Assembly (NCBI GenBank): GCA_013299115.1
Contig: JAAFKA010000038.1
Location: forward strand, 1 to 45,148
Length of the DNA stretch: 45,148 bases
Direction of reading: 5' to 3'
Source of the DNA: Cytophagales bacterium
GTDB lineage: Bacteria; Bacteroidota; Bacteroidia; Cytophagales; Thermoflexibacteraceae
The position numbers and the translations under genes were made by a program. The first letter of the stretch is position 1. Each line of letters begins with the position of its first letter. Below the pieces are notes generated by a model, which saw only the letters and a list, made by a program, of their open reading frames with translations, searched no databases and was not told the DNA's origin. Below are positions 13,353 to 43,267 of the stretch, in pieces.

Positions 13353-13374
13353 TTTCGGTTTCTCAAAATCAAAA
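13353..13374 (+). repeat. Degenerate copy of CTCA-loop hairpin, 3' of ruvB
   Basis: TTTCGGTTT-CTCA-AAATCAAAA preserves the loop and most of the stem (one G-U and one mismatch) of the hairpin family seen at 16313, 24056, 24088, 38412 and 43244. It lies 31 nt after the ruvB stop with the loop CTCA in the ruvB sense. Confidence 0.4.
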
Positions 13375-13575
13375 TAGGTTGTTGAAGAGGTACGAAAATT
13401 TTGTAAAGAGTTGTAAATGAGCAAATTAATAATTAAGAACTATAAAAATCAAACCTAAGTAGAATATAGTAAAAAAAAAATGAAAAATTTTTACCCTTTT
13501 TGAACTTTCTATATAAAAAAATTATTAACTTAGTATTAGAAACAACTTAGAATTAAATTAAATTTTTCTAATAGC

Positions 13576-13583
13576 TAAATTTG
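13576..13583 (+). promoter_or_regulatory. -7 promoter box with near-leaderless start
   Basis: TAAATTTG ends only seven nt before the ATG at 13591. With the usual spacing of this box to the transcript start, the mRNA would have no or only a few leader bases. No TTG -33 half is seen. Confidence 0.4.
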
Positions 13584-13590
13584 TAATACT

Positions 13591-13866
13591 ATGGAAACAC
13601 TAAGCAAACGAAAACAGAAAGCAAAGGCAAGACTGAGGAAAATACAAAACAAAAACAGGGCTATCAAACTGCTTATTGTGTTTGGACCTGTTATTTGTTT
13701 CTTATTTGCTTATTTTATTGCGAGCATTTATTTTGCTTACGCAACCAAACAGCATAACCGTTTAGACCATTCCAAAAACATTGGTGGCTTGTTCGAGAAG
13801 GTTAAGCAAAAAGTCTTGAACGAAGAACCTAAAAAACAGAGAGTTGAGAATACTGTGCAAGATTAA
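13591..13866 (+). CDS. Small single-pass membrane protein, unknown function
   Basis: The 91-residue protein has a highly basic N-terminus (SKRKQKAKARLRKIQNKNRA, residues 5-24), one strong membrane helix at about 27-54 (LLIVFGPVICFLFAYFIA) and a polar, lysine-rich tail. Positive charge before the helix predicts the N-terminus inside. I recognise no family. It has its own promoter box and is flanked by ruvB and a convergent small membrane-protein gene. Confidence 0.65.
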   Translation: METLSKRKQKAKARLRKIQNKNRAIKLLIVFGPVICFLFAYFIASIYFAYATKQHNRLDHSKNIGGLFEKVKQKVLNEEPKKQRVENTVQD

Positions 13867-13909
13867 CTTGTGTAGTTGCTCTCTTTGTCTGTTGGTTGGC
13901 TCAATTTAT

Positions 13910-13941
13910 AAAAAAGATGGCATCTTATTCAAAGATGCCAT
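13910..13941 (-). terminator. Terminator of the 123-aa membrane protein gene
   Basis: ATGGCATCTT (13917-13926) and AAGATGCCAT (13932-13941) form a perfect 10-bp stem. Read on the minus strand the hairpin is followed by CTTTTTTATA, a U-tract, so it ends the leftward gene. Confidence 0.75.
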
Positions 13942-13977
13942 ATCTTGTTAGTAGCTTTTGGGTAGTTACCAAATATG

Positions 13978-14349
13978 TTACAATTTTTTACTAATTCTGA
14001 AAGTGGTCAACATTCTAAACGTGGGAAAGCCGTCTTCGTCTTCTCCTGTTACCATTTGCGTATCTTCTGTAACCTCATATAATTTGTAGGCTTCTTTGGT
14101 TTCTCCTTTTTTGAGGCTCGACAAAATAGAGTTCACTGTTTGGGCTTCCTCATATTGTTCCTCTTGTACGAGCTGCTGCTTATAAACCTCAAAAGCTTGT
14201 ACCAAATCACCCGATGGTTTGGCTTTCTTGCGTTTTTTGTAAATTTTCATACCAACAAATGCCAACAGAGCCAATAAACCTGCTGCGGTCAGAAAACCGA
14301 AAACAAAGAAAAAACCACCAAAAAAGGCTTTTAATATTTCTTGTAGCAT
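13978..14349 (-). CDS. Small N-terminally anchored membrane protein, unknown function
   Basis: The 123-residue protein has one membrane segment at about 8-36 (FFGGFFFVFGFLTAAGLLALLAFVG in part), then a basic KIYKKRKKAKP stop-transfer stretch and a soluble domain (SGDLVQAFEVYKQQLVQEEQ) ending FRISKKL. The cytoplasmic part looks helical then beta-rich (EDEDGFPTFRMLTTFRI). No family recognised. It is 78 nt downstream of asnB's stop on the opposite reading side: the two genes share the strand, with asnB upstream in position but its stop facing this gene's start, so co-transcription is possible. Confidence 0.6.
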   Translation of the reverse strand: MLQEILKAFFGGFFFVFGFLTAAGLLALLAFVGMKIYKKRKKAKPSGDLVQAFEVYKQQLVQEEQYEEAQTVNSILSSLKKGETKEAYKLYEVTEDTQMVTGEDEDGFPTFRMLTTFRISKKL

Positions 14350-16312: not shown

Positions 16313-16336
16313 CTTTGGGTTTTGAGAAACCCAAAG
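16313..16336 (-). repeat. CTCA-loop hairpin, 3' of yebC-like gene
   Basis: The minus strand reads CTTTGGGTTT-CTCA-AAACCCAAAG, a perfect 10-bp stem, starting 10 nt after the stop of the gene at 16346 and followed by TTTTAAC. It differs from the commonest copies by C-to-G in the stem with the partner base changed too. Confidence 0.75.
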
Positions 16337-16345
16337 CACTAAAAA

Positions 16346-23908: not shown

Positions 23909-24007
23909 GTTTGGTTTGCAATTTTATATACTGCTTTTTATACGTTGGCAATGGTCGAAGACCTTGACAATCGTATAAAAATATGCTGGTACGATTGTTT
24001 CGTATGG

Positions 24008-24034
24008 GTGCTTTTGGTTTCTTAAAAGCAAAAC
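24008..24034 (+). repeat. Degenerate hairpin-family copy in element
   Basis: GTGCTTTTGGTTT-CTTA-AAAGCAAAAC resembles the family hairpin reversed with a GTGC flank; one stem mismatch and loop CTTA for CTCA. In this orientation it lies in the sense of dprA. Confidence 0.4.
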
Positions 24035-24055
24035 GTAATCTTTTGAAACGAATAA

Positions 24056-24079
24056 CTTTCGGTTTTGAGAAACCGAAAG
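24056..24079 (-). repeat. CTCA-loop hairpin, first copy in element
   Basis: Minus strand: CTTTCGGTTT-CTCA-AAACCGAAAG, perfect 10-bp stem, downstream of the aroB stop and in the aroB sense. Confidence 0.75.
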
Positions 24080-24087
24080 CACGAAGA

Positions 24088-24107
24088 TTCGGTTTTGAGA
24101 AACCGAA
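24088..24107 (-). repeat. CTCA-loop hairpin, second copy in element
   Basis: Minus strand: TTCGGTTT-CTCA-AAACCGAA, perfect 8-bp stem, followed (plus strand) by the same AGCAC flank as the first copy 32 bp away. Confidence 0.75.
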
Positions 24108-24166
24108 AGCACAAAAATACGATTGTCAAGGTCTGCGACCATTGCCAACGTAGCTAAATCCAATAA

Positions 24167-25333
24167 CTACAATTTTGCTAACAGATTTTCCAAAACTTTT
24201 TCGGTCATTTCTTTGTCATACACACAATTTCCTATGCCTTGCAAGGCACAAGACCGAATACTTTGGTAGCTATTTTTCTTGTCTTGTTGTGCCAAACTGA
24301 TAATTTTTTGATAGACTTCGGGCAAAATTTTTGGTTTTTCATACAATAAACTTACCAAATGAGCTATTTTTTGGTAATCTTGCTCACTTAACAAGCCTTG
24401 TTGAACAGAAAATAAAGCCTCTGCCACCATGCCCCAAGCCACTGCCTCGCCATGCAAAAGAGGAGAATGGGTAGTCAAAAAATAACTTTCTATGGCGTGT
24501 CCTATCGTATGCCCGAAGTTGAGAGTTTTGCGTAGCCCTTTTTCGGTGGGGTCTGCCGTTGTAATTTGCTCTTTAATGGCAATAGAATGTTTGACTAAAT
24601 TATTCCAATCTAATTCTTTGCTGAACTGACTAAAAAACTCCAAAGGAGAGTAGTTCTGCCCAAGTAATGGTGGAGTTGCATGAGCAGTAACATTTCTTGA
24701 AGAAATGTTACTGCTGAGCATTATTTCTGTGGCACTGCCCAAAGGTGCATAAGTTTGGGAATTGGCAACAAAATTGGTAGCTATTTCATAGATTTCATTC
24801 CATTTCTTAGAGTCGGCTATCAAACAATGCTTTAACACTTCGGCAAAACCCGACCTTAGTTCCTGCAAAGGCAAAGTATTTAAAAAATTGGTATCAATCC
24901 AAACCGCCAAAGGTAGTTGAAACAAACCAATGTGGTTTTTAAATCCCTGAAAATCAATGCCTAACTTGCCTCCCACGCTGGCATCTACCTGTGCGAGCAA
25001 GGTTGTAGGAAGTTGAATAAAATCTATTCCTCGTTTGTAAGTGGCTGCACAAAACCCACCCATGTCGCCAACGACCCCTCCGCCTAAGTTGAGCAGCAAG
25101 GCTTTTCTATCTAACTGATAAGCAGTGAGTTGTTGCCAAATTATCGAGCAAGTTTCAATATTTTTATGCAATTCGCCTGCCCGAATGGTTAGGGTGCGGT
25201 GTGGTGGCAAAAAAGGTGCAAGCAAAGGGTAGCAATGCAACAGGGTATTATCATCTGTCAAAACGACTATTTGTCTATCTGCAAATTGAGCAAAAAACTC
25301 TGCTTGTAATGGTGCTATGTAAATGGAGGACAT
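24167..25333 (-). CDS. aroB: 3-dehydroquinate synthase with an in-frame insertion
   Basis: The 388-residue protein converts DAHP to 3-dehydroquinate, second step of the shikimate pathway. NAD-binding GGGVVGDMGGFCAATYKRG, the LRSGFAEVLKHCL motif with the Zn ligand Glu and the LNFGHTIGHAIESY motif with Zn ligand His are intact, plus DPTEKGLRK. Family members are about 340-360 residues. The distance from GFAEV to GHTIGH is about 110 residues against roughly 63-67 in familiar homologues, so about 45 residues are extra. They include MLSSNISSRNVTAHATPPLL, whose LSSNISSRNVTA part is encoded by a perfect 33-bp palindrome (24683-24715). The insertion avoids the active-site motifs, so activity may be kept. 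Confidence 0.92.
   Translation of the reverse strand: MSSIYIAPLQAEFFAQFADRQIVVLTDDNTLLHCYPLLAPFLPPHRTLTIRAGELHKNIETCSIIWQQLTAYQLDRKALLLNLGGGVVGDMGGFCAATYKRGIDFIQLPTTLLAQVDASVGGKLGIDFQGFKNHIGLFQLPLAVWIDTNFLNTLPLQELRSGFAEVLKHCLIADSKKWNEIYEIATNFVANSQTYAPLGSATEIMLSSNISSRNVTAHATPPLLGQNYSPLEFFSQFSKELDWNNLVKHSIAIKEQITTADPTEKGLRKTLNFGHTIGHAIESYFLTTHSPLLHGEAVAWGMVAEALFSVQQGLLSEQDYQKIAHLVSLLYEKPKILPEVYQKIISLAQQDKKNSYQSIRSCALQGIGNCVYDKEMTEKVLENLLAKL
24683..24715. repeat. Perfect 33-bp palindrome inside aroB
   Basis: AGCAGTAACATTTCTT, one centre base, then its exact reverse complement. It shares the outer AGCAGTAACA and TTCTT-N-AAGAA motif with the palindrome at 17840-17870, but the inner arms differ. 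Both are preceded by TG. On the aroB reading frame it is translated without a stop. Confidence 0.85.
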
Positions 25334-25416
25334 ATTTTTTGGGGTAATAGGTGTTATTACGATAATTTTTGTATAGAAAGATCACCAATTTATGAATTAA
25401 ATATGATGTTAGATGG

Positions 25417-26400: not shown

Positions 26401-26459
26401 ATAACATTACTTTTTTTGGCGGTAAGGTTGTAATCTTACACAAAACATTTTTTTATCTT

Positions 26460-26488
26460 TTGAAACTAAGAAAGTATTTTTACCTTTG
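26460..26488 (+). promoter_or_regulatory. Promoter of the PlsC/patatin operon
   Basis: TTG (26460-26462), an 18-nt spacer and TACCTTTG (26481-26488) fit the Bacteroidota consensus exactly. The TTG codon used by the longest reading of the next gene lies inside this box (26486-26488), which shows that the true start is downstream. Confidence 0.65.
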
Positions 26489-30761: not shown

Positions 30762-30802
30762 AGTTAATGTTTAGTTTTGAATGTTGAAGGAAAAATTCAA
30801 AA

Positions 30803-31348: not shown

Positions 31349-31394
31349 TTGCAGTAAAAAAAGACTTCTATTGAATGAATAGAACTATTAGAAA

Positions 31395-31402
31395 CAAAGA
31401 TA
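31395..31402 (-). promoter_or_regulatory. -7 promoter box of the DUF1599 gene
   Basis: Minus strand TATCTTTG, 46 nt upstream of the ATG at 31348. No TTG at 17-23 nt. Confidence 0.4.
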
Positions 31403-31554
31403 AGAGTTTATTTTAAAAAATGTAGGTTGTACAAATTAAAATAGCAAATCTCAATAAATTCACATTTACCTTTACAAGTTTTTTTTCTTTTTTGCGTAGT
31501 TTTCTCCAAAAATATTTACATTTACGCAAAACTTCATTTTACTGTACTTTTGTC

Positions 31555-34500
31555 ATGCTACGCAGTTGCTTGTCTTCCTTCAAATTGCACTTCTTTTTTC
31601 AGTTGTTTTTGTCTTGTTGGGCTGTTGCTTTGCAAGCCCAAGAATACCGAACAGAAATTTACCGAGTAGAGCAAGGGCTGCCTACTAACCTAACCAAAGC
31701 TATTTTGCAAGATAGGCTGGGGTTTGTTTGGGTGAGTACAGATGCAGGTTTGATACGTTTAGACGGCAAACACGCAGTTAATTTTGCAGACAAACTGCCC
31801 AGCAATTATGTAAAACATATTATCAAACGCAAGGGCGGAAATTTGTTAGTTGCCAATGACAAAGGAATTTCCAAAGTTACCAATAACATAGATACCGTTT
31901 TGTTTGAGCCTTTGGTAAAGGCAGACATAGAATTGTCTGATACGACCATTGCCTCGCCCAAATTTTTGTTAGAAGACCACAAGCAACGCCTTTGGATAGG
32001 GCAAGACCAGAATGTAAGCCTGTTGGAAAATGGCAAATTAACTAATTTTCGTTTTGGAACTGAATACCAAACCACAAGCTGGACAAGGGGCTTTTCGGTG
32101 GCTCAAAATGAAAGAGGACACGTTTTTGCTACCTCCCAACGAGGTACTATTTTCCGTTTTGACGAAGCCCAACGCCAATTTGTTAAATTAGGACACCCCA
32201 ATGTGTTTGCCGTTATCAGTGCTTGTTTCCCCTACACACAAGACAGGTTATTGATAGCCACCGAAAATGGTTTAATGGAAATTCAACTCGATGCCAAAGG
32301 CTATTTTGTAAGTTGGAAAACTTTGTTGAACCTACCCAATATTTCTTTTATAGCCAAAGACAGCAAAGAAAAATTTTTGATAGGTACTTGGAATGCAGGA
32401 CTTTACACTTGCAACTTGTTCCAAAAAAACCAACAGTTGAAAAAAATTTCCAAATTGCCTTTCAAAGTTATCAATGATATTTACATAGACAATAAAGACA
32501 ATGCGTGGATAAGTTCTGATGACGGCGTGGCTTTTTTGCACAATTCTTTTTTTGTTCATGCACAAATCCCTACGGAAAGAAACTATTTGATAGCCGCCCA
32601 ACAAGGGCAAGACAGTAGCATTTATGCTACCGAAGGGGCAGTGATTGTAAAGGTAAAAAACGACAGCACTTTTACAGGTAGTTTGGTAGTAGAGGGTGCA
32701 AAATACGGTTTGAAAGATATTTTGAGTGTTGCCCACAACCAACATGGTTTATGGTATGGCACTTCCAATGCAACGGTCTATAAATTGCAAAACAACCGCA
32801 TAGACACCGCCGTTTTGAGCAAAAGTGCCTCGAAAATTATCTATTTGTTGAGTGATAAAAACCATGATATTTGGGCTTGCCAGCACGAAACCAAAGAAAT
32901 AATGCGGATAACACCGCAAATGAAAGTCATCAAATATGGGGCAGACAAAGGAATTGTGAGCAGGGTCTATGCCATAGCCCAAGACCAAGACGGCAAAATT
33001 TATTGTAGTGGCAACAGCCAAGACGCATTGCTCTACGAATATGACGAAAAACAAGACAGGTTTATCAATATCAGCACACCCATTACTGTTACCAACAAGC
33101 AAAATGAATTTAGGATAGACGACCTCGCCATAGACAACCAAAAACAGATTTGGCTCGGTGGCACTTATGGACTGTTTCTTTACGGCAAGGACTCTACAAG
33201 GCACGTCATTTTACCAAAAAATTTGGAGGTTACGGCTGTTACCACAGGCAACGATGGCAGTCTTTGGCTGGGAACTAACGAAGGGCTGATGAAATATTAC
33301 CAAAATGACTTGCTGCATTTTGACGAATTGAATGGGCTACCCTCCAAAACTATTGCACACAGAGGAGTATTTATAGACTATGACAGCCGAATCTGGATTG
33401 CAACGGCAGCAGGGTTGGCTTATTCGCAGGGCTTGCAAGACCAAACCGAAAAAACACCTACGCCTGTTTTCCTTGCTTTGCAAATCAATGGCAAAAGAAT
33501 AGATGTGCAGGAGGATAAAAATTTGACTTTCCAAAATAATTCTTACTTGCAGGCAAGTTTTATTTCTTTGACTTTCCCCTCCGATAAAGTGCTGTACCAA
33601 TACAGATTAGTAGAGAAAGAGCAAAAAACAGCGTGGTCAGAGCCTGTTACCAAATCTGAATTGCTATTGCCCCAACTCCACAAAGGCAATTACCTATTGG
33701 AAATCAGGGCATTGCAACAAGGGGCTTTTTTGTGGAGTAATCCTTTGCGGTTTCAATTTAACATAGAACCTGCGTGGTATCTCCGTTGGTGGGCTTTTTT
33801 GTTGTATGCAGCAGGGTTAGGCTTAGTTATTTACACCATTTTTAATTGGTACACCCAACGCCTGAAAAAAGAAAAAGAAGCCTTAGAAACTTTGGTGCAA
33901 CTCCGCACCCAACAGATACAAGAGCAAAAAGACGACCTCGACAAGCAAAATCAACTGTTGGAACTCCAAAATATCAATATTGTAGCAAGTATTCAGTATG
34001 CAAAACAGATACAAGATGCCATGTTGCCTACGGCTAAGAGAATGGACGAATTGTTCCCCAATAATTTCATCTTTTTTAGACCCAAAGACATTGTATCTGG
34101 CGACTTTTATTGGTGCAACGAAACCAAATTTGCCCTGAGCAGAAAACTTGCCAAGCAGATAGTAGCAGCCGTAGATTGTACGGGGCATGGCGTACCTGGG
34201 GCTTTTATGTCGTTGATTGCCAATAGTTTACTCGACGAAATTTGTGTAATAAAAGGTGTAGAACACACCGATTTTATTTTGAGAGAACTCAACAAAGGTA
34301 TCCAAAAAGCATTGAAACAGCAAGAATCTGAAAACATGGACGGCTTAGACCTTGCCCTCTGCATTATAGACAAAGCAAATCAAATCATAGAATTTTCGGG
34401 GGCAAAACGACCTTTGTTTTATGTGTATCAAGGCGAAATGCACACCATTAAGGGACATCATTACAGCATTGGCGGCTACCATGTGCCGCTGAATACGCTG

Positions 34501-34773
34501 TATCAACGCCACACTATTCCGTTTGAGCAAGAAATTTCGCTGTACCTAACTTCTGATGGCTATCAAGACCAATTTGGCAAGCAAAACAAAAGATTGTCGT
34601 CCCAGAATCTACGCCAACAGCTACTTGCCAACCATACCAAAGATATGGCTACACAAAGACAGCTTTTAGAACAACAATACGAAAGTTGGAAAGGCAACAA
34701 TTTCCAAAATGATGATGTGTTGGTGTTGGGTTTGCGGGTGGTGTTAGAGGGTTTTGCGTTGCCAATAGTCTAA
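31555..34773 (+). CDS. Two-component-regulator propeller sensor with SpoIIE/PP2C phosphatase output
   Basis: The longest frame starts at TTG 31492; the ATG at 31555 gives MLRSCLSSFKLHFFFQLF... ending ALQAQ, a proper signal peptide, and is preferred (1072 residues). From about 30 to 640 repeated blades (e.g. DRLGFVWVSTDAGLIRLDG, NDGSLWLGTNEGLMKY) make two beta-propellers. A Y_Y_Y domain follows, then a membrane helix near 741-766 (YLRWWAFLLYAAGLGLVIYT), a coiled coil and a cytoplasmic SpoIIE/PP2C domain from about 811 with VSGDFYW, DCTGHGVPGAFMS and LDLALCIID motifs. It senses an outside signal and dephosphorylates a cytoplasmic target; no kinase or anti-sigma partner lies next to it. Its stop abuts the convergent Omp85 gene with no spacer. 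Confidence 0.9.
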   Translation: MLRSCLSSFKLHFFFQLFLSCWAVALQAQEYRTEIYRVEQGLPTNLTKAILQDRLGFVWVSTDAGLIRLDGKHAVNFADKLPSNYVKHIIKRKGGNLLVANDKGISKVTNNIDTVLFEPLVKADIELSDTTIASPKFLLEDHKQRLWIGQDQNVSLLENGKLTNFRFGTEYQTTSWTRGFSVAQNERGHVFATSQRGTIFRFDEAQRQFVKLGHPNVFAVISACFPYTQDRLLIATENGLMEIQLDAKGYFVSWKTLLNLPNISFIAKDSKEKFLIGTWNAGLYTCNLFQKNQQLKKISKLPFKVINDIYIDNKDNAWISSDDGVAFLHNSFFVHAQIPTERNYLIAAQQGQDSSIYATEGAVIVKVKNDSTFTGSLVVEGAKYGLKDILSVAHNQHGLWYGTSNATVYKLQNNRIDTAVLSKSASKIIYLLSDKNHDIWACQHETKEIMRITPQMKVIKYGADKGIVSRVYAIAQDQDGKIYCSGNSQDALLYEYDEKQDRFINISTPITVTNKQNEFRIDDLAIDNQKQIWLGGTYGLFLYGKDSTRHVILPKNLEVTAVTTGNDGSLWLGTNEGLMKYYQNDLLHFDELNGLPSKTIAHRGVFIDYDSRIWIATAAGLAYSQGLQDQTEKTPTPVFLALQINGKRIDVQEDKNLTFQNNSYLQASFISLTFPSDKVLYQYRLVEKEQKTAWSEPVTKSELLLPQLHKGNYLLEIRALQQGAFLWSNPLRFQFNIEPAWYLRWWAFLLYAAGLGLVIYTIFNWYTQRLKKEKEALETLVQLRTQQIQEQKDDLDKQNQLLELQNINIVASIQYAKQIQDAMLPTAKRMDELFPNNFIFFRPKDIVSGDFYWCNETKFALSRKLAKQIVAAVDCTGHGVPGAFMSLIANSLLDEICVIKGVEHTDFILRELNKGIQKALKQQESENMDGLDLALCIIDKANQIIEFSGAKRPLFYVYQGEMHTIKGHHYSIGGYHVPLNTLYQRHTIPFEQEISLYLTSDGYQDQFGKQNKRLSSQNLRQQLLANHTKDMATQRQLLEQQYESWKGNNFQNDDVLVLGLRVVLEGFALPIV

Positions 34774-36510
34774 CTAAAATCTTGTCGTCAATCCAAAGTG
34801 AATTTTCATTTGGTTGATACCAATGGCTTGTGTTTCGGACTTGCCCAGAGCAGCCACAAAGCTAAAAATACCTGCCTTTGTACCAAAACTAAATCCGCCA
34901 CCTAAGCCTAATGGAGAATCCCAACGATAGGCTGTGTTTTTTGGCATTTCTATAAAAGCATGGTCTATGAAGGCAAATAAATTGGAGTTTTCGGCAAAAT
35001 AAAGTCGCCATTCTGCGGTTTGTATGGCATAAAAAGGACTAAAAAAAGTCAATTCGTTGAAACCACGCAAAGTTTTGAAACCTCCTAATTGAAACAACTC
35101 ATTGGTAAACAAATTAGAATTGAGCAAAATACCCGAATTGTGGCGAAAAAGCAAAGCCGTATTTTTGCCCGTAGGCACAAAACGACTGACCGAAAAATTA
35201 GCCTGAATTTGGGTGCTTTGCAGTTGCAAATCTTTGTAAATCGGATTATTGAGTTCCCACTGCGGTTTAATCACCTTGTTGCCTGCCGAAGTCAAAAATT
35301 GCAGTTGCCAACCCCTGCGAGGGGCTAATCTGTCGTCTAAGTTCTGAAATTCTAAGCCAATGCCATAGCGTTGGAGTTCGGTAGCAGCCACTTGTTTGTT
35401 GGGTTGATTGATTTGGGCTGAGTCGGCTGTGGTTTGCAAAAACTCTGTAAATGCCAGCAATTTTGCCCCGCCGCCCAACCAATAACCCAACTGCAAAGAC
35501 CAACTAAAATTGACAAAAGAGGTATCTCTTTTATTCAGGTGCAATTTTGCCCCTACGTCTATTCGTGTTTTGAATAAATTGGGGTGTTCGTACTGCACGT
35601 TGAGCAGTTGCGACTGCACACGAGGACTCTGCCAATCTAATTGCAAGTTTTTTCCTGCCTGAAACAAGTTGTATAACTTCAAATTAATTTGCCCTGTAAG
35701 TTGTAATTGGTTGTTATTCAAAGCATTAGGCAACAAACCCACAATGCCATCAAATTGATTAACTTTCAAGGCTTCGGTGTGGAGTAAGACAAAAGCCCTG
35801 TCCCTTTCAAAAACAATTTCAGGCTTACTAAGCAATTTGAGGTAGGGCAAAGTTCGCAATAATTTTTCGGCATCATCTACTTTTTTTTGGCTAAAAGGCT
35901 GCTTGCGATAAAGTTTGAGGTAGTCTGCCAAAAACTTTTTTTTCATTTTCAAGGGGTTTTTGCCCACTATTATCAACGAATCGAAAACTATGGCTGTGCC
36001 TTGTTGATAATGCAAGGTAGCTGAAACTTGCTGGGCTTGTACTTTGACAGAATCTAAGAAAACAGTGGCAAAAGGATAACCTATATTTTGGGCATGAGCC
36101 AATAATTTGGTTTTGAGTTGCAAAAAATCAGTGTAATGCAGTCGTTTTTGGCTAAAATTTTTGGGTTTCCAACCTGCATTTTTCAGCATCTCGTCGGGAA
36201 TGTTGGCTGTTTGCAGTTGCAACCATTGGTAAGGTTCGCCACAATACAGATAAGCAAAAATAGTTTGTTTTTTGATACGCACCGAGTCGAAAGAAGCTGC
36301 CAAATAGCCTGCTTGGTGGAGATTTTGCAACCCTTGTAGCAAAATTCTTTTGCCTACAAGGGTGTCTCCTACTTGGGTGGTGAGGAAATATTTTGCAAAA
36401 ATATCATTCTTATTTTGCTGTGAATCAACTACTTGCAAACTGTATGACTGAGCAAAACAGTTGGAAGTATAGAGCCAAAAAGACAATAAAATAAGGGTTT
36501 TGGCAAACAT
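34774..36510 (-). CDS. Omp85 (BamA/TamA-like) outer-membrane protein
   Basis: The 578-residue protein starts with a signal peptide (MFAKTLILLSFWLYTSNCFAQ). Residues about 20-250 contain POTRA-like modules (e.g. TAIVFDSLIIVGKNPLKMKKK, PFSQKKVDDAEKLLRTLPYLK). The C-terminal barrel contains LGGFKTLRGFNELT, the LRGF equivalent of the VRGF motif, and ends FGLTTRF with terminal Phe. Omp85 proteins insert or export outer-membrane proteins or lipids. It is smaller than housekeeping BamA (about 800), more like TamA/FhaC-type or lipid-handling paralogues. It follows the SDR gene after 5 nt, so it is in that operon. Confidence 0.85.
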   Translation of the reverse strand: MFAKTLILLSFWLYTSNCFAQSYSLQVVDSQQNKNDIFAKYFLTTQVGDTLVGKRILLQGLQNLHQAGYLAASFDSVRIKKQTIFAYLYCGEPYQWLQLQTANIPDEMLKNAGWKPKNFSQKRLHYTDFLQLKTKLLAHAQNIGYPFATVFLDSVKVQAQQVSATLHYQQGTAIVFDSLIIVGKNPLKMKKKFLADYLKLYRKQPFSQKKVDDAEKLLRTLPYLKLLSKPEIVFERDRAFVLLHTEALKVNQFDGIVGLLPNALNNNQLQLTGQINLKLYNLFQAGKNLQLDWQSPRVQSQLLNVQYEHPNLFKTRIDVGAKLHLNKRDTSFVNFSWSLQLGYWLGGGAKLLAFTEFLQTTADSAQINQPNKQVAATELQRYGIGLEFQNLDDRLAPRRGWQLQFLTSAGNKVIKPQWELNNPIYKDLQLQSTQIQANFSVSRFVPTGKNTALLFRHNSGILLNSNLFTNELFQLGGFKTLRGFNELTFFSPFYAIQTAEWRLYFAENSNLFAFIDHAFIEMPKNTAYRWDSPLGLGGGFSFGTKAGIFSFVAALGKSETQAIGINQMKIHFGLTTRF

Positions 36511-36515
36511 ACTGC

Positions 36516-37394
36516 TTACCCTTTTTTATTTGCTCCACGAATAGCCATTTCGAGTACGTCCCACATTTCGTTAGGAATTACTTCGAGGTTGTTCATTTCG
36601 CCTGCACCTTTTAGCCATTCGCCGCCGTCTATGGTTACTACTTCGCCATTCACGTAGCTACTATAATCTGAAACCAAATAGGCTGCTAAATTGGCTAATT
36701 CTTGATGTTCGCCGACTCTGCCCAAAGGTACTTTTTTGGTAATATCCAATTTCTCTTGCAATTCGGCAGGGAATAATCTGTCCCATGCACCTTTGGTGGG
36801 GAAGGGACCAGGTGCTATGGCGTTAGAACGGATACCGTATTTTGCCCACTCTACGGCAAGTGAACGGGTAAGTGCCAACACACCTGCCTTTGCACAAGCC
36901 GAAGGCACTACATAAGCCGAGCCTGTCCACGCATAAGTGGTAACAATGTTGAGCATTGTACCTTTCTGCTTTTTAGTTATCCAATTTTTGCCTGCTGCCA
37001 ACGTAAAATTATAAGTGCCACGCAACACAATGTCTATAATAGTATCGAAACCTTTAGAATTTAGTCTTTCGGTTGGGCTGATAAAATTACCTGCTGCATT
37101 GTTGAGCAGCACATCGAGGCTACCAAAATTGTCTTCTATTGCCTGAATTACTTTTTCCACGTCCTCATAATTGCGAACATCGCAAGCCAAAGCCAATACT
37201 TTGCCTCCTGTTTCTGCCATGAGTTCGTCTGCTGTTTTTTGCAAAACGTCTAATTTACGACTTGCAATGACCAAATTAGCACCGAGTTGCAAAAAATATT
37301 TGCCCATAGACTTGCCCAAGCCTGTGCCACCGCCTGTTACAAGGATGGTTTTGCCTTTGAGAGCATTTTCTTTTAACATTGGTTCGTTATACAT
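36516..37394 (-). CDS. SDR family oxidoreductase, 2,4-dienoyl-CoA reductase-like
   Basis: The 292-residue protein has the NAD(P) motif TGGGTGLGKSMG (20-31), LDVLLNNAAGNF and the C-terminal IDGGEWLKGAG. The canonical YxxxK is not present: the lysine survives in PSACAKAGVLALTRSLAVEW, but the Tyr position is Ser, as in 2,4-dienoyl-CoA reductases (DECR), which use other residues; the preceding GNFISPTERLNSKGF also fits. It would reduce conjugated enoyl-CoA in beta-oxidation of unsaturated fatty acids. An alternative start at Met6 (MLKENALKGK) is possible. It leads an operon with the Omp85 gene. Confidence 0.88.
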   Translation of the reverse strand: MYNEPMLKENALKGKTILVTGGGTGLGKSMGKYFLQLGANLVIASRKLDVLQKTADELMAETGGKVLALACDVRNYEDVEKVIQAIEDNFGSLDVLLNNAAGNFISPTERLNSKGFDTIIDIVLRGTYNFTLAAGKNWITKKQKGTMLNIVTTYAWTGSAYVVPSACAKAGVLALTRSLAVEWAKYGIRSNAIAPGPFPTKGAWDRLFPAELQEKLDITKKVPLGRVGEHQELANLAAYLVSDYSSYVNGEVVTIDGGEWLKGAGEMNNLEVIPNEMWDVLEMAIRGANKKG

Positions 37395-37416
37395 AAAATA
37401 GATTTTAGGTTTTGGT

Positions 37417-37448
37417 CAAAGATAAGTAGAATGGTGGTTAATTAGCAA
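37417..37448 (-). promoter_or_regulatory. Promoter of the SDR/Omp85 operon
   Basis: Minus strand TTG (37448-37446), 21 nt, TATCTTTG (37424-37417): a full match. The box ends 22 nt before the ATG at 37394. Confidence 0.65.
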
Positions 37449-37470
37449 AATAAACAATATATTTTCAGTA

Positions 37471-38211
37471 TTATTGCAATAAATTCAGCCTCTCTATGAT
37501 TTGGTCTTTGAACCTACGGCTAAAAGCTAATTGGATTTCGCCTACTTTTATGCTGTGGTCTTGCAAGTTGATATGGTCTATGTGGTTTGCATTAATAATC
37601 AAATTGCGGTTTACACGCAAAAAATCTTTTGCGGGCAGTTTCATAAGCAGTTCTTTGAGGGGCATTCTCACCACCAATTTTTGGTCTCTGGTATGTAGTT
37701 CTGCATATTTATCTACAATTTCTACATAGAGAATATCTATGATTTTGATTTTTTCTAACTTTTGTCCTATTTTGACAAAAAAAGAATCTTTCACCACAAT
37801 ATCTTTCTGCCAACCTTCATAGAGTTCGTTGTCTAAGCTGGCATTGGCATATTTATACAAAGCTAATTCTATGCTTCGCTGCAAAGTCAATTCATCAAAA
37901 GGCTTGATGATAAAGGCAAACGGATTGGTGTTTTTTGCCCTATCAAAAGTTTCCTTGTCCTGAAAAGAGGTAATAAAAATAACAGGCATTGGGTTTTTGG
38001 AATTGGCTATGCTTTGGGCTACGTCTATACCGTCTTTCATACCCTTCAAATGAATGTCGAGCAACACCAAATCGGGTTTTGTTGCTGCTATCAAGGTAAG
38101 CATTTCCTCCGCATTGTCCACTACTTTAATCAATTCGTAGCCTAATTCTTCTACCAAAATCTCAATGGTATTAGCAAAAATATGGTCGTCTTCGGCAATT
38201 AAAATACGCAT
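37471..38211 (-). CDS. LytTR-family response regulator
   Basis: The start is the ATG at 38211, 18 nt after the promoter box; a frame from TTG 38241 would begin upstream of the expected transcript start. The 246-residue protein has a receiver domain (acidic Asp8/Asp9, phosphoacceptor Asp52 in LVLLDIHL, the Thr in VIFITSF and Lys in IIKPF) and a LytTR DNA-binding domain from about 140 (YVEIVDKYAELHTRDQKLVV, FLRVNRNLIINANHI). It should bind DNA when phosphorylated. No histidine kinase gene is adjacent. Confidence 0.95.
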   Translation of the reverse strand: MRILIAEDDHIFANTIEILVEELGYELIKVVDNAEEMLTLIAATKPDLVLLDIHLKGMKDGIDVAQSIANSKNPMPVIFITSFQDKETFDRAKNTNPFAFIIKPFDELTLQRSIELALYKYANASLDNELYEGWQKDIVVKDSFFVKIGQKLEKIKIIDILYVEIVDKYAELHTRDQKLVVRMPLKELLMKLPAKDFLRVNRNLIINANHIDHINLQDHSIKVGEIQLAFSRRFKDQIIERLNLLQ

Positions 38212-38229
38212 AAGTTCAAAATTGTAGGG

Positions 38230-38261
38230 CAAAAGTAGCAAAAAATCTCAAAGAGATTCAA
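38230..38261 (-). promoter_or_regulatory. Promoter of the LytTR regulator
   Basis: Minus strand TTG (38261-38259), 21 nt, TACTTTTG (38237-38230), full match with the same spacer length as the promoters at 37417 and 42513. Confidence 0.6.
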
Positions 38262-38411
38262 CAGTTTATCAATAAAACCAAAAAAATGGCGTAAGTGGTT
38301 GATTGGTGTGTGTAAACGGTAAAAATAATGGTGTGAGTGGTAAAATTATATAGTTACCTTAGACTAATGTTATTGGGGTTGTTTTAGTGTGCTTTCGACT
38401 TTATTGTCTGT

Positions 38412-38437
38412 GTTTTTGGTTTTGAGAAACCAAAAAC
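38412..38437 (-). repeat. CTCA-loop hairpin, 3' of the 778-aa gene
   Basis: Minus strand GTTTTTGGTTT-CTCA-AAACCAAAAAC, perfect 11-bp stem, 15 nt after the stop at 38453. The upper stem has T-A where other copies have C-G. Confidence 0.75.
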
Positions 38438-38452
38438 AAAACCGAAAGCATT

Positions 38453-40789
38453 TTATTTCAATTCCACCCCGCCAAACTTATCGACTGCTATCACAATTTT
38501 ACCTTTTTGAATACTAAAAGTTACGTTGCCCAGTGTGCTGTTTTCAAACCGCATACGCCCTTGTTCTATAAAAACCTGCCCTCGTTGATTTCTTTCTTGC
38601 AAGGTGCTACCATCGGGTTGCTGAATCCGCAAGTGGTAAGTAAATACGCAAACTTTGTTTTCTTGGGGCTGACTATCGAGGATTTGCAAACCTATTATCA
38701 AATCTTTTTTGCCCTCTGCTGCGTAAGTGCCTGTGTAAATTTGCTTAAACGGCACACATTCCGCATTGGGGGCTGGTGGGTGGAGTTTGTGCTGCACCCA
38801 CGTTTTGGTCGTTGGATAATATTTTGCCCCTGCCCACACCAAAGCCACTATTGCACCTGCCACCAAAGCACCTTTTAAAATAGTTATAAATTTGCCAAAA
38901 GAAAACTTAGTTTTTGGCGGTTTCGGTGTTTCAAAACGCAACTGCTCGATGGCTGCTGCCACTTCTTGCATCGTTTGGTAAGGACTGCCTGAACTTCCTC
39001 CGTTTGTCCTTTGGATAATAGGTTTCCAAAGCAACTGCTTTTCATCAGTCAAAAGTTGCAAAGCCTGCGGAGTGGTTTTGCCTGTGAGAAATTGCAACAA
39101 AATGACCCCAAATTCTTTGATATTTTGCTGTTGTTTGCTGCCAATGTATTGGGCTGCTGCATATTCTACTTTGCTACTTGTTAGCTTAACTTGCTCATTT
39201 TCAATGAATAAGTGCTGGTCATTCAGTTTGGCATGATACCAATGAAATTGGTGCAACTGCTGCAAAGCCGCCGCCAACTGCAAAGCATATTTTTTAATCA
39301 AGTCGTGGCTGGCTGTGGTGTTGGCAAGGGGCAGCGCCAATTTGTTCATCGGTGTTCCGCCCAACCATTCGGTGAGGTAATACAAAGCATTTTCCTCCGC
39401 ACTGCTATACGCCACCGCATTAGCCAACTGCGGGTGTTGCATTTTGGTTTTCAGCCAATCATACTCCACTTTTAGTCGGTTGCGGTACTCTGCATTTTGT
39501 AAATACTTGTCTTTCAGGGCTTTCATCAACACCCAACCATGTTGTTTGTGCTTTGCCTTCACAAAAAAATACAACGTAGTTTCGCCTACGGGTTCAAAAG
39601 CCGTAAAAATAATTTTGGCTGCTTCTTGCATTATCAAGTCCTGCACTGCGGTCAATGATAAGTTATATTTTTTTGCAACTTGCTCTATTTCAGCTTGTTG
39701 TGTTGCTGTCAATTCGCCATTTTGCTCTTGTATCAGGTTTTTTATTTTCTGTTGCAACTGCTGCCAACCTTGTTCTTGCTGTTGCTGTTGCCATTGGTGG
39801 TACAGCTTTTCAAAGATTTGCAGTTGCAGGTCTTGGTCGTTGAGTAGTTGCAACCTTGCCCCGCCTATTTGGGCAGAGAGCAAAGCCACCAGCACCTGAT
39901 TTTGCAACAGATTACCTGCCAAAATAATTTTTTGGAAGTTATGCACAAAATCCAACTGATTTATCTTTTTGACTATCAGGTTGTTGTCTAACTCTACACT
40001 ATCTATTTGCTCTTTACTCAACAGCACTTCGCCTGCATAACCGTCTGAAAACTCTATACGAATTTGGCAAGTGCCACGCTGTTTCACGTCTTCTATCCAA
40101 CGCCTTGCCTCGCCTGTGTAGTGGGCAATGAGTTTGTCTTTTTCTGCCTCGCCACTGTTGGTACTCGAATTTTTTAGGGCTTGTTCCACCACCAATTTTG
40201 CTACTTTTGCTGCCGTTTCTTTTGCTATAATGGGCAAAGTTTGCAGGGTCAAAGGTTTTTCGGGTGTTTGGTGCAAAAAATGCAAAGCCTGTTCGCCAAT
40301 ACTTTGAAGGAGTAAAGTATGGGTAGTCAATAAATTAGCAACAGCATGGGTAGTTTGCAAGATTTTGAAACCTAAATTTTCTTTCAAAAACTTTTGCAAT
40401 CTTTCTATTACTTTGGGAGTTAAATCAAAAGGCAACACCAAAACCACCTGCACCGCAGCCGTTGGGGGCTGTTGGTGGGTTTGCAAATACTTTTCTTTGA
40501 GGTCTTGCAAGGTATCTGTGAGCAAATTGACTATCGGAAAATGATTGCTATGCAACTCAAAATCAGCATTTTGCTCTATGCCTTGCCACAAATTGCCATA
40601 GACCTGCCTACCTTTGGCGTGATGAAACGCAAAAGCCGAAATAGGATAAATGGTAGAGTTTTTGACCTCAAAAAATAGAGGAATTTGCAGAAAACCATCG
40701 GAAGCAAAGGCGGTGAAAGTTGCCTGCTGCCCCTCAAAAGTGCCTGCTACCAAATACTCGTGAGCAAAATATAAAAATAGGGGGGTCAT
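38453..40789 (-). CDS. Hsp70-like/pseudokinase/transmembrane fusion protein
   Basis: A 778-residue membrane protein I read as three parts. Residues about 1-340 have the fold pattern of an Hsp70 ATPase: VQVVLVLPFDLTPKVIERLQ matches the VPAYF segment, then LGFKILQTTHAVANLL and FQKIILAGNLLQNQVL as the later ATPase strands, but the DLGTTNS phosphate motif is missing. Residues about 400-600 look like a protein kinase: FVKAKHKQHGWVLMKALKDK holds the VAIK-like lysine, EYDWLKTKMQHP the helix C, YLTEWLGG the hinge. HRDLKPxN is replaced by YHAKLNDQHL and DFG by TSSKVEY, so the catalytic Asp and metal Asp are lost. A membrane helix (about 634-656) and a beta-rich external C-terminus follow. It is probably a scaffold or sensor; Gln-rich spacer near 340-375. 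Confidence 0.65.
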   Translation of the reverse strand: MTPLFLYFAHEYLVAGTFEGQQATFTAFASDGFLQIPLFFEVKNSTIYPISAFAFHHAKGRQVYGNLWQGIEQNADFELHSNHFPIVNLLTDTLQDLKEKYLQTHQQPPTAAVQVVLVLPFDLTPKVIERLQKFLKENLGFKILQTTHAVANLLTTHTLLLQSIGEQALHFLHQTPEKPLTLQTLPIIAKETAAKVAKLVVEQALKNSSTNSGEAEKDKLIAHYTGEARRWIEDVKQRGTCQIRIEFSDGYAGEVLLSKEQIDSVELDNNLIVKKINQLDFVHNFQKIILAGNLLQNQVLVALLSAQIGGARLQLLNDQDLQLQIFEKLYHQWQQQQQEQGWQQLQQKIKNLIQEQNGELTATQQAEIEQVAKKYNLSLTAVQDLIMQEAAKIIFTAFEPVGETTLYFFVKAKHKQHGWVLMKALKDKYLQNAEYRNRLKVEYDWLKTKMQHPQLANAVAYSSAEENALYYLTEWLGGTPMNKLALPLANTTASHDLIKKYALQLAAALQQLHQFHWYHAKLNDQHLFIENEQVKLTSSKVEYAAAQYIGSKQQQNIKEFGVILLQFLTGKTTPQALQLLTDEKQLLWKPIIQRTNGGSSGSPYQTMQEVAAAIEQLRFETPKPPKTKFSFGKFITILKGALVAGAIVALVWAGAKYYPTTKTWVQHKLHPPAPNAECVPFKQIYTGTYAAEGKKDLIIGLQILDSQPQENKVCVFTYHLRIQQPDGSTLQERNQRGQVFIEQGRMRFENSTLGNVTFSIQKGKIVIAVDKFGGVELK

Positions 40790-40811
40790 TTAAAATTTTA
40801 GTAATGCTGTA

Positions 40812-40831
40812 GTGTGGGCTTCAGCCCGCAC
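40812..40831. repeat. GTGGGCT-TC-AGCCC palindrome
   Basis: GTGTGGGCTTCAGCCCGCAC forms a 9-bp stem with one G-U. A relative (GTAGGCTTTAGCCTGC) lies at 43466-43481, and both are followed by CATTTT. Confidence 0.6.
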
Positions 40832-40859
40832 ATTTTGTTCTTTATATTTTTGCCTATAA

Positions 40860-41447
40860 CTACGCCAATTCCACATACCTATACAAATCCTTCATCTGAA
40901 TTTTTAGGTCTAAACTCCTAATCACTACCTCCTTATCAATCCCTTCAAACAAAGTAGTGTGCCAGCTATTTTTATCAATTATCAAAAAAGATGCTACGCT
41001 ATAAGCATCTTGCCTGAGCAAAATATATTCTTTGAGAGAGGGCAAGGTTCTATAAAAATCAAACTTTTGTCCCCTATCAAAAGCCTCTGTACTGTCTGAT
41101 AGAATTTCAAAAATCACAGTTGGATTGTGCAATATACCATTTTTTTTGTCTATGTCAAGGTCGCCGCAGGCAATGGCAGCATCAGGATAGAAAAAAGAAT
41201 TGCGTTGGGGAATCCAAATTTTGGTGTTGGTTGTAAAAGGTCTGCAAGGAGTCTTTTGCAGCACATTGGCAAATATTCCCATTAAATTGCCTTCAATACT
41301 GTTGTGGTCGCCAGACCCTCCTGCACGAGCAACGACCTCACCCATAAAATAATCATACTTTTCGGGCGAAGTTTCCTCATAAAATAAATATTCTTCGCGA
41401 GTAGCAAAAAATCTTTCCGTACTTTCAGGTTTGTGTAAGGCAGCCAT
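40860..41447 (-). CDS. Uma2 family endonuclease
   Basis: The 195-residue protein belongs to the Uma2/DUF820 nucleases. PEKYDYFMGEVVARAGGSGD, HNSIEGNLMG, FYPDAAIA (Asp89) and TVIFEILSDST (Glu114) are the motif series, with RGQKFDFYRTLPSLKEYILL following. These proteins have a PD-(D/E)XK fold and are thought to be nucleases, often in multi-copy sets in cyanobacteria and Bacteroidota; the target is unknown. The gene is single here, between the pseudokinase and the M28 peptidase. Confidence 0.9.
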   Translation of the reverse strand: MAALHKPESTERFFATREEYLFYEETSPEKYDYFMGEVVARAGGSGDHNSIEGNLMGIFANVLQKTPCRPFTTNTKIWIPQRNSFFYPDAAIACGDLDIDKKNGILHNPTVIFEILSDSTEAFDRGQKFDFYRTLPSLKEYILLRQDAYSVASFLIIDKNSWHTTLFEGIDKEVVIRSLDLKIQMKDLYRYVELA

Positions 41448-41516
41448 GGCACGTGATTTTATGGTTTTTGTATTTCAATGACAAGGTAGGGCTTATTTTT
41501 TTGTAAAGCAATAAAA

Positions 41517-42473
41517 TTACTTTTGTTTCATTTTCATTTTTTCGACCTGAATAGCAGGCAAATTTTCGTCTAAATTAACCACTTGGTCTATAATCATTTC
41601 GGTAGCCTTTATAAAAAAGACTTGGTTTATGGTTTCAAATCTGTCTGTTGGTTGGTGATAGTCTTTGTGGTCTTCCACCCCAAAATAGATGAACGGAATA
41701 CCAGCCCTGTGAAACTCCCCATGGTCGGAGGCAAAAGTCCAATCTTGTTGTCCGCCACTTTTTTCTTCGGGTATGTCATGCCCATATTTGAGCCTGATGT
41801 CGTGTTTTTGGCTGTTTTTCTCCAAATAAGGTTTCAAAAAAGGGTAATGTGTCGTGCCACAAGCATAGAGTTCATTTTTGTCGTTTCGGCTAATCATATC
41901 TAAGTTTATGCACAAGGCAATTTTTTCTTGTGGCACAGGCGGATTGTTTACAAAATGTTTTGCCCCTTTCAACCCTATTTCTTCGGCATCAACAGCCACA
42001 AAAATAATGGTGTGTTTGGGTCTTTTCTTTACAAAATGCTCGGCAAGGGCAAACATACCTGCCACACCAGACCCGTTGTCGTCTGCTCCGTTGTAAATTT
42101 CATTATTTTTGATACCCAAATGGTCGTAATGGGCAACCACCACCAGCACGTTGTCCTTGTTTTCTGATGTGCCTTCTATGTAACCCACGAGATTTGTGCC
42201 GTTAATTTTTGTTCCATTGGAGGTTTCGAAACTAAAAGGCTGTTCATAACCGTCGCCATAAAACATGAGCTTGTAGTCCAGAAACCGTTGAATGATGTAT
42301 TCTTGTGCTTTTTTGCTGCCATTAGTGCCTGTTTTTCTGCCCTGAAAAGCATCGGAGGACAAGATTTTTATATCAGACAAGAGTTGCAAGGCATTCAACC
42401 TTTCTTGGGCTGCTGCCTGTAAAGCAAACAAAGAAAAGAATACAATAGAAAAAAGTCTTGTTAGAGTTGTCAT
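41517..42473 (-). CDS. M28 family zinc aminopeptidase, exported
   Basis: The 318-residue protein starts with a signal peptide (LTRLFSIVFFSLFALQAAAQ). The co-catalytic zinc ligands are visible: AHYDHLG (His, Asp), NGADDNGSG (Asp), DAEEIG (Glu), NLDMI (Asp) and DYHQPTD (His). The group removes N-terminal residues from peptides in the periplasm or outside. It has a complete promoter at 42513-42544 and ends in a Lys/Met-rich tail (KMKMKQK). Confidence 0.93.
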   Translation of the reverse strand: MTTLTRLFSIVFFSLFALQAAAQERLNALQLLSDIKILSSDAFQGRKTGTNGSKKAQEYIIQRFLDYKLMFYGDGYEQPFSFETSNGTKINGTNLVGYIEGTSENKDNVLVVVAHYDHLGIKNNEIYNGADDNGSGVAGMFALAEHFVKKRPKHTIIFVAVDAEEIGLKGAKHFVNNPPVPQEKIALCINLDMISRNDKNELYACGTTHYPFLKPYLEKNSQKHDIRLKYGHDIPEEKSGGQQDWTFASDHGEFHRAGIPFIYFGVEDHKDYHQPTDRFETINQVFFIKATEMIIDQVVNLDENLPAIQVEKMKMKQK

Positions 42474-42512
42474 TTAATTTATGGATTTTAAGAAAAGTAG
42501 TTTCCCAAAAAA

Positions 42513-42544
42513 CAAAGATACACACTATTTTTTAACCTACCCAA
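42513..42544 (-). promoter_or_regulatory. Promoter of the M28 peptidase gene
   Basis: Minus strand TTG (42544-42542), 21 nt, TATCTTTG (42520-42513); the box ends 39 nt before the ATG. Confidence 0.65.
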
Positions 42545-42596
42545 ACACAATAGCATAGTTTTTGCAAACTTTATGTTAGATTAGAAATTTACGACT

Positions 42597-43232
42597 ATGA
42601 GCAACTTTTTATTATCTCAACCGATGACAAAGAAAATAGCAATTTTGGCGGCTTTGGCAGTGTTTTTGGGTCTAAGTCATCTGGCTTTGCATCCTCCCAT
42701 TCTGCAAGAAATAAGTGAAATGACCGACGGCAGAGATGGCACTATTTACAAGACTGTAAAAATAGGGGGCAAATATTGGCTGGCAGAAAACCTGATTTAC
42801 GACACGCCGACAGGCTCTTTTTGGTATAACAACAAAAAAGGAAGTGGCAAAGGCAAATTGTATTCGTGGGAAGCAGCCAAAACAGCTTGCCCCACAGGTT
42901 GGCACCTGCCCACAGACGAGGAATGGCAAAAATTAGAAGTAAATTTGGGTATGGACACGCAGCAAGCCAAAGACATTGGTTTCAGAGGAACAGACCAAGG
43001 CAGGCAACTAAAAGCCAAAGGTAGCAGTGGCATGAACCTACAATTAGGTGGTTTCAGACACTCCGATGGCACGTTTGGAGATTTGGGCGAAAAAGGCTTT
43101 TATTGGACAGCCACTCCACACAGCATCACAGGAACAGCCTTCCGCCGTTCTTTCAATAATAGTTCAGAACAGGTCTATCGGACTAATCACGATACCAATT
43201 ATGCGTATAGTTGCCGTTGTGTAGAAAATTAA
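42597..43232 (+). CDS. FISUMP-domain protein, exported
   Basis: The 211-residue protein (or 202 from the ATG at 42624, MTKKIAILAALAVFLGL) has an N-terminal membrane/signal helix without a lipobox. The rest is a Fibrobacter succinogenes major paralogous domain: YKTVKIGGKYWLAENLIYD, YSWEAAKTACPTGWHLPTDE EWQKLE-type stretch, GGFRHSDGTF, GFYWTATPHS and YSCRCVEN at the end. Cys-Cys pairing in C-P-T-G-W and C-R-C is typical. These secreted domains have no known enzyme activity. Confidence 0.8.
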   Translation: MSNFLLSQPMTKKIAILAALAVFLGLSHLALHPPILQEISEMTDGRDGTIYKTVKIGGKYWLAENLIYDTPTGSFWYNNKKGSGKGKLYSWEAAKTACPTGWHLPTDEEWQKLEVNLGMDTQQAKDIGFRGTDQGRQLKAKGSSGMNLQLGGFRHSDGTFGDLGEKGFYWTATPHSITGTAFRRSFNNSSEQVYRTNHDTNYAYSCRCVEN

Positions 43233-43243
43233 AGGTAGTAGTG

Positions 43244-43267
43244 TTTTCGGTTTCTCAAAACCGAAAA
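43244..43267 (+). repeat. CTCA-loop hairpin, 3' of the FISUMP gene
   Basis: TTTTCGGTTT-CTCA-AAACCGAAAA, perfect 10-bp stem, 12 nt after the stop, with the loop CTCA in the sense of the gene. Confidence 0.75.

Follow-up and report, generated by a model that had tools for sequence, protein, structure and literature searches.

CTCA-loop hairpins of a Cytophagales bacterium as a probable, apparently orphaned REP/REPIN-type repeat family of a Bacteroidota RAYT lineage

In a 45,148-nucleotide stretch of DNA from a Cytophagales bacterium (assembly GCA_013299115.1, contig JAAFKA010000038.1, positions 1 to 45,148; hereafter the window), short hairpins with a CTCA loop recur just after stop codons, which raises the question of whether they are RNA elements carried by the genes or copies of a DNA repeat. 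An earlier note on the window had proposed either a structured RNA 3′ end or a repeat resembling repetitive extragenic palindromes (REPs). Our analysis favors the latter. With a probability of about 0.82, the hairpins represent an apparently orphaned family of the REP or REPIN (REP doublet forming a hairpin) type, i.e., small mobile DNA, that belongs to a Bacteroidota lineage of REP-associated tyrosine transposases (RAYTs). This reading is supported by similar hairpins that flank RAYT genes in relatives of the bacterium.

The window contains seven matches to the core sequence GGTTTCTCAAAACC. Five are exact, at 16318-16331, 24061-24074, 24091-24104 and 38418-38431 on the minus strand and at 43249-43262 on the plus strand; two on the plus strand carry one (13357-13370) or two mismatches (24016-24029). 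Only 0.66 matches with up to two mismatches were expected, and none of 100 shuffled sequences reached seven. The hairpins listed in the earlier note were confirmed at their places. A covariance model built from the genome copies recovered these seven sites, with scores from 50.4 to 22.9 bits. The five full copies fold as hairpins of 8 to 12 bp, and equally stable folds were obtained with 0/200 shuffled sequences; for the two degraded copies, 20/200 and 7/200 shuffles folded at least equally well as DNA. We then searched the genome that the window comes from (G000; 74 contigs, 5.5 Mb, estimated to be 99.99% complete). It harbors 147 exact cores, 76 forward and 71 reverse, versus 1 for a reversed control, in agreement with the earlier view that the hairpins are not chance palindromes, an explanation that we reject on these counts and on those of the window. 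The genome search with a covariance model that the earlier note had called for yielded at least 153 matches (150 of 9,839 candidates were scored).

The location of the copies relative to genes was analyzed in 635 kb of G000, which contain 102 of the 147 exact cores, using open reading frames (ORFs) called in this work rather than an annotation. These 635 kb include contig C1 and the window (365 kb together, coding fraction 85.9%); the other stretches were chosen for holding a core, a choice that skews the density of copies but leaves their orientation unaffected. In C1 and the window, none of 42 model hits lies within a called gene, and the scatter of hits over coding regions that the earlier note had named as contrary evidence was thus not observed; over all examined stretches, 4 of 104 copies do. 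Among 37 perfect hairpins with arms of at least 8 nt and a four-base loop in C1 and the window, 23 have a CTCA loop, and none of these 23 is in a called gene. The copies form 63 clusters, of which 38 are found between tandem genes, 14 between divergent and 8 between convergent genes, 2 in called genes and 1 at an edge. The intergenic gaps of at least 60 bp in C1 and the window comprise 129 tandem, 50 divergent and 33 convergent ones, and the share of clusters between divergent genes (14/63) is therefore proportionate to that of the gaps (50/212).

These data bear on the idea that the hairpin is a structured RNA at mRNA 3′ ends, either an intrinsic terminator or a stability hairpin carried by genes. 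Three full copies and one degraded copy of the window do follow the stop codon of the upstream ORF by 10 (copy at 16313), 16 (38412), 12 (43244) and 31 nt (13353), in agreement with the 10 to 31 nt of the earlier note, and they are oriented like that gene; as RNA, the full copies also fold into stable hairpins. Among the clusters between tandem genes, 27 of 38 are within 100 nt past the upstream stop, compared with 16 that lie within that distance of the following start. However, closeness to stops has likewise been described for known REPs, in the portion of PMC3733652 that we consulted. The agreement with gene sense noted in the window was not maintained genome-wide, where 14 single copies between tandem genes are in the gene sense and 14 in the opposite one, and clusters between convergent genes are 5 in the same sense and 3 opposite. 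The random orientation that the earlier note had put forward as contrary evidence is thus what the genome shows, and it counts against an RNA 3′ end. A run of four T within 10 nt past the stem in the gene sense was found for 11 of 92 copies (12.0%), close to the background of 12.7%. With an even orientation and no T-tract, the idea of an RNA 3′-end element loses its main support, and we reject it, as a 3′-UTR RNA or terminator, on these two grounds and regard it as highly improbable; intergenic regions between divergent genes are hit at their share, and the patchy distribution of the repeat and its linkage to RAYTs described below also argue against it. No Rfam family was detected in the window at gathering scores, so that a known Rfam RNA is rejected as well. 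Of the two proposals in the earlier note, it is thus the REP-like repeat that is supported.

The anatomy of the unit was established by aligning 101 distinct copies on the loop. As they were picked by their exact core, the loop and the inner stem are fixed by that choice. The unit consists of an unpaired 5′ GTG, a 10-bp stem with a covarying outer half and the CTCA loop. The three bases of the GTG tag, at positions -15 to -13, are present in 84, 90 and 87 of the 101 copies, and the base that follows, which is the first of the stem, is C in 56, G in 25, T in 13 and A in 7. Two of the five outer stem pairs are nearly invariant, and three co-vary: positions -8/+7 are paired in 89 of 100 copies (50.4 expected from column composition), -9/+8 in 95 (70.2 expected) and -12/+11 in 75 (46.3 expected). 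Positions -13/+12, at the tag, are paired in 65 copies versus 67.4 expected, showing no excess over chance.

The covariance model was built from 79 of 94 distinct 32-mers, the 15 others, mostly near-copies in arrays, being dropped. In these 79 copies, also picked by exact core, 95.7% of the stem cells are paired, and 67 cells have a change on both sides, versus 18.0 ± 3.4 after shuffling; since the copies are kin, such counts do not represent independent events. In a control in which the partners were slid along the alignment, the covariation score dropped from 0.235 to 0.079 or less. The compensating stem changes that had been noticed in the window are therefore a property of the family at large. 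Degraded copies with a CTTA loop occur as well.

In C1 and the window, the 42 hits form 20 clusters. They include four inverted pairs with an identical overlap of the model ends (-7), and the three pairs whose letters were inspected begin and end with GTG on their outer sides, as REPINs do. Tandem arrays were also observed, at L045:3607-3807, L045:2424-2610, L049:8937-9236, L050:6202-6311 and in L140 around 4295-4433. The spacer of the tandem arrays hardly varies inside any one locus, whereas different loci have different spacers, with periods of 34, 36, 39 and 54, which looks like local duplication following the arrival of a copy.

The link with transposases comes from the relatives. A search for transposases with a single catalytic tyrosine (Y1) in seven of them gave 25 match rows, and at 3 of the 25 loci, in G011, G039 and G009, hairpins with a CTCA or CTTA loop stand on both sides of the gene; the RAYT gene at the G009 locus has internal stops. 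With G088, four genomes have such hairpins on both sides of a RAYT gene. In G156, a copy of the G000 type (48.9 bits) is found approximately 90 nt downstream of the RAYT gene, the upstream side ending with the contig. The G011 and G039 proteins match the NCBIfam family REP_Tyr_transpos with 92.5 and 105.8 bits (cut-off 80), and the solved structure nearest by sequence is TnpArep (4er8), a weak match (E 0.0017). In five aligned RAYT rows, the motif NH[LIV]H is present in all (NHIH, with one NHVH), and the tyrosine motif is YIH[QN]NP in three, the others having YIHDNP and YIHHNP; WQ is found in none (WE in four, WS in one).

A contig search identified 42 RAYT loci, 40 of which have at least one hairpin with an arm of at least 7 nt within 350 nt. 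With loops labelled by script from the commonest tetraloop, CTCA or CTTA was found beside RAYTs of Runella, Spirosoma, a Microscillaceae metagenome-assembled genome (MAG) and some Cytophagales MAGs. Elsewhere the loop is TTAC in 9/9 Pedobacter, and TTTC or TTCC in several others. The RAYT gene of Runella limosa (L203) is accompanied by six copies that are identical over 26 nt to positions 43241-43266 of the window, four upstream and two downstream. In another family of the order, two distant RAYTs (L118 in G087 and L119 in G032) have CTCA-loop hairpins with stems of the GCTTC/GAAGC type.

We constructed a tree of the RAYTs with 38 of the 42 loci, using the longest stop-free piece for rows with stops; the four loci under 110 amino acids that were dropped include one with a CTCA hairpin (L232). 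The nine CTCA/CTTA rows make up one side of a branch with a support of 99/98 that is recovered in 200/200 bootstrap trees. The GTAA, GAAA and GGAA loop labels need three or four changes each on the tree, and 9 of the 38 rows are in no loop group, two of them inside the CTCA/CTTA clade. This Cytophagales clade also contains the RAYT of a MAG titled uncultured Thalassobius sp. (Pseudomonadota; L199, CAKZMZ010000517.1), and the title or the binning of this record may be wrong.

The number of exact cores follows the clade in the 25 genomes, out of the 42 with a RAYT locus, in which they were counted. Runella defluvii has 251 and R. limosa 208, followed by Spirosoma arboris (44), S. validum (37) and a Spirosoma MAG (24); four Cytophagales or Microscillaceae MAGs have 8, 7, 1 and 1, the Thalassobius-titled MAG 2 and Flavobacterium SUN052 none. 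Among the 14 genomes whose RAYTs fall outside the clade, a single core was found altogether. The core is thus present in 10/11 clade genomes versus 1/14 others (Fisher test, p 3e-5). In a sample of 291 genomes of the order, for which at most 10 candidates per genome were scored for RAYT, the core is present in 5/5 genomes with a RAYT at E ≤ 1e-75 versus 38/286 others (p 6e-5), and in 7/20 versus 36/271 at E ≤ 1e-30 (p 0.016). The five genomes at E ≤ 1e-75 include the query genomes G011 and G039, first noticed for their RAYT-flanking hairpins; without these two the proportions are 3/3 versus 38/286 (p 0.003). The Fisher tests of the two sets overlap by five genomes that, judged by coordinates, appear to be shared (G009, G011, G088, G143 and G156), and after removal of these from the 25-genome set the core is present in 5/6 versus 1/14 (p 0.002).

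How does the family compare with known systems? As in REPs, bacterial interspersed mosaic elements (BIMEs) and REPINs associated with RAYTs (TnpA_REP), the unit is a short hairpin between genes whose 5′ tag is unpaired; it has a high copy number and occurs in inverted pairs and arrays, and hairpins of the same design are found beside RAYT genes in relatives. It shares with REPs in the wide sense a palindromic hairpin of 20 to 40 nt, a high extragenic copy number and a short unpaired tag, and the palindrome flanks a RAYT in G011, G039, G009, Runella and Spirosoma but not in G000. Unlike in those systems, the outer stem drifts with compensation, and the CTCA loop stands out among hairpins. Tags of two kinds, GTAG and CGTC, are defined for REPs in the consulted portion of PMC3733652. 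The GTG tag found here corresponds strictly to neither, and as it is followed by a variable first stem base, the family is not placed in the GTAG super-family. The CGTC-tagged REPs, as presented in that portion, are likewise high-copy palindromes tagged at one end and are reported without a dedicated transposase, but they have a different tag, and a RAYT is found here in relatives. We conclude that the family belongs, in a wide sense, with the REPs and their RAYTs but lies outside the GTAG super-family, and that its loop tracks the transposase clade.

Another close system is subclass 2.6 of the Bacteroidetes TnpA_REP in a 2018 survey (PMC6006769). In the parts consulted, these transposases are said to have ‘atypical secondary structures’ on their flanks, further copies of which are found at other genomic sites, and their GTAG-recognition region is not conserved. 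By motif description, the RAYTs found here resemble them in being Bacteroidota proteins of approximately 180 amino acids with NH[LIV]H and, in part, YIH[QN]NP, but they have WE (one WS) where the survey table has WQ. Those parts of the survey contain no loop rule or copy counts. The IS200/IS605 elements also have a Y1 transposase of the HUH class and subterminal hairpins read as single strands. In contrast with these elements, however, the G011 and G039 proteins score above the RAYT cut-off but do not reach that of IS200, and the G000 repeats are abundant without the gene.

Several observations weigh against a REP/REPIN-type family with a RAYT. No RAYT of the CTCA/CTTA clade was detected in G000 itself, the best E values being 2.9e-7 and 7.7e-8, and its RAYT-like genes were placed outside the clade in 7 of 7 cases, as were the more distant ones of the core-rich G003 (two), G021 and G175 and that of G071, with a branch support of 98/98; the placement tree has some very long branches and was made without L235 and the broken genes of G067 and G167. 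No CTCA/CTTA hairpin with an arm of at least 6 nt was found at any of these loci, those of G067 and G167 included, in the sequence examined, which covers one locus only in part. We thus rejected the idea that every core-rich genome has its own RAYT, given the RAYT-like genes of G000, G003, G021 and G175. In the order sample, only 3 of the 9 genomes with at least five cores have a RAYT at E ≤ 1e-30. Two rows in the clade have another loop label, L200 (Flavobacterium, CCCC, no core) and L208 (AAAG). The tag is GTG and not GTAG, and inverted pairs are a minority, 10 of the 20 clusters in C1 and the window being single copies. Lastly, movement was not seen: G001, the only other genome of the genus, offers no comparable empty site because the genes of the window are scattered over different G001 contigs. 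We take the missing RAYT of G000 to have probably been lost once the repeats had spread, a course of events also mentioned for other REPs in the consulted portion of PMC3733652.

Alternatively, the repeats might be non-autonomous elements moved in trans by a Y1 protein of G000, such as the product of the IS200-like gene at C35:23112. A copy at C35:23040-23053 lies approximately 60 nt upstream of this gene (L077, 23112-23453), but on one side only, and the only NCBIfam match of the protein is IS200, with 53.7 bits for a cut-off of 55. Short tandem repeats surround the gene. The Y1 genes of G000, three by Pfam and seven by the RAYT query, were all considered as a source and rejected, as none is bracketed by a CTCA hairpin and one has a one-sided copy. 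The seven RAYT-like genes are flanked by other palindromes or by none. Those of L106, L079/L108 and L111 (contigs C28, C11 and C74) each have their own palindrome, of the TTGTCCGACACC, ACCTATCGGGTGGC and AAACCTTATAAGGTCTT types, respectively, which speaks against mobilization in trans and makes this explanation doubtful. Different palindromes at three RAYT-like loci suggest that several REP-like systems coexist in one genome.

Another possibility is that a host protein (a nucleoid protein or gyrase) binds the hairpin DNA, which selection would have preserved since its domestication. Binding of this kind has been proposed for the BIMEs of Escherichia coli. The core is well preserved in G000, with 27 exact cores among the 42 model hits in C1 and the window, despite no cognate RAYT being found. 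However, 1 exact core is present in G001 and 0 to 7 in each of the 11 further members of the family, so that no conserved host role is visible. A host-protein site is thus an unlikely explanation of the family, which may nevertheless have a secondary host role in G000.

We return to an apparently orphaned REP/REPIN-type family and propose the following mechanism. The hairpin would be a miniature DNA unit for a single-strand transposase of the RAYT group (HUH, Y1). The RAYT probably binds the hairpin as single-stranded DNA, recognizing the letters of the GTG tag and of the CTCA loop but only the duplex form of the outer stem. It would then nick at the tag and carry the unit into further intergenic positions, probably as the DNA replicates. 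The roughly 150 copies of G000 would be an orphaned population, some of them multiplied locally by tandem duplication, and effects on neighboring mRNAs, if any, would be a by-product.

From the loops beside RAYTs we derive a more tentative proposal, somewhat less than an even bet, that Bacteroidota RAYTs read the loop, each clade being matched to its own tetranucleotide: CTCA/CTTA for the Runella-Spirosoma-Microscillaceae clade, TTAC for nine Pedobacter rows and TTTC/TTCC for several others. An outer stem read only as a duplex would be free to drift with compensating changes. If correct, such a loop code would differ as a recognition rule from the E. coli-type guide based on GTAG, and a population of repeats could persist after its transposase is gone, as in G000. 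Because loop and RAYT clade match, recognition can be tested directly with a few oligonucleotides. G000, G021, G175 and G003, which are rich in copies but yielded no RAYT of the clade, are natural cases for studying the persistence of repeats without their enzyme.

New here are the repeat family, the GTG tag that it carries and the correspondence between loop and transposase clade. Among the papers listed in searches of the open-licence literature, judged by titles and the openings of abstracts, none was seen to describe this repeat, and the core as a text string has no match there; none of six Bacteroidetes words occurs in PMC2817692. A sequence, copy counts and a matching transposase clade are now given for repeats of the kind that the consulted parts of PMC6006769 call ‘atypical secondary structures’, and populations of REPs are shown in named Cytophagales, i.e., the two Runella genomes.

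The copies of the window differ in their state of preservation. Three are full, with a GTG tag: 43241..43267 on the plus strand (47.7 bits), with the 10-bp stem and CTCA loop, 16313..16339 on the minus strand between two minus-strand genes (50.4 bits, supported by its fold), and 24056..24082, also on the minus strand (48.5 bits). The latter is the second in a head-to-tail pair, whose first member, 24088..24112 on the minus strand (32.2 bits), has the GTG tag and a shortened 3′ arm. The copy at 38409..38440 on the minus strand (43.4 bits) has a 12-bp stem in its fold and TTG replacing the tag; read on the opposite strand, it has GTG before the stem and a TGAG loop. This hairpin is part of a larger imperfect palindrome, GCTTTCGGTTTTG ... 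AGTCGAAAGCAC (38400-38450), as if one copy had landed in another. Two copies on the plus strand are degraded, as judged also by folding: 13348..13379 (29.5 bits), with a broken stem and an intact loop, and 24007..24038 (22.9 bits), with a CTTA loop and inverted relative to the 24056-24112 pair.

The three copies around 24 kb, one of them degraded, belong to a composite site (23941..24152) in which they are surrounded by the arms of a second palindromic family. These arms, at 23941-23976 and 24117-24152, are 36 nt each and 97% complementary. The second family has the form TACGTTGGCAATGG - variable hairpin - ACCTTGACAATCGTA, over roughly 35-47 nt. In addition to the two arms, it is found near 44836 in the window and at many sites in C1; copies of its end motif number 12 in C1 and the window and 30 over the whole 635 kb, with inverted pairs at several places. 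A search of a plasmid collection with one gene of the window gave no match. Lastly, 29 of the 43 G001 matches of the 24900-44800 stretch fall at approximately 33967-34326, inside the ORF at 31492-34773, showing that this region holds a motif common to many loci.

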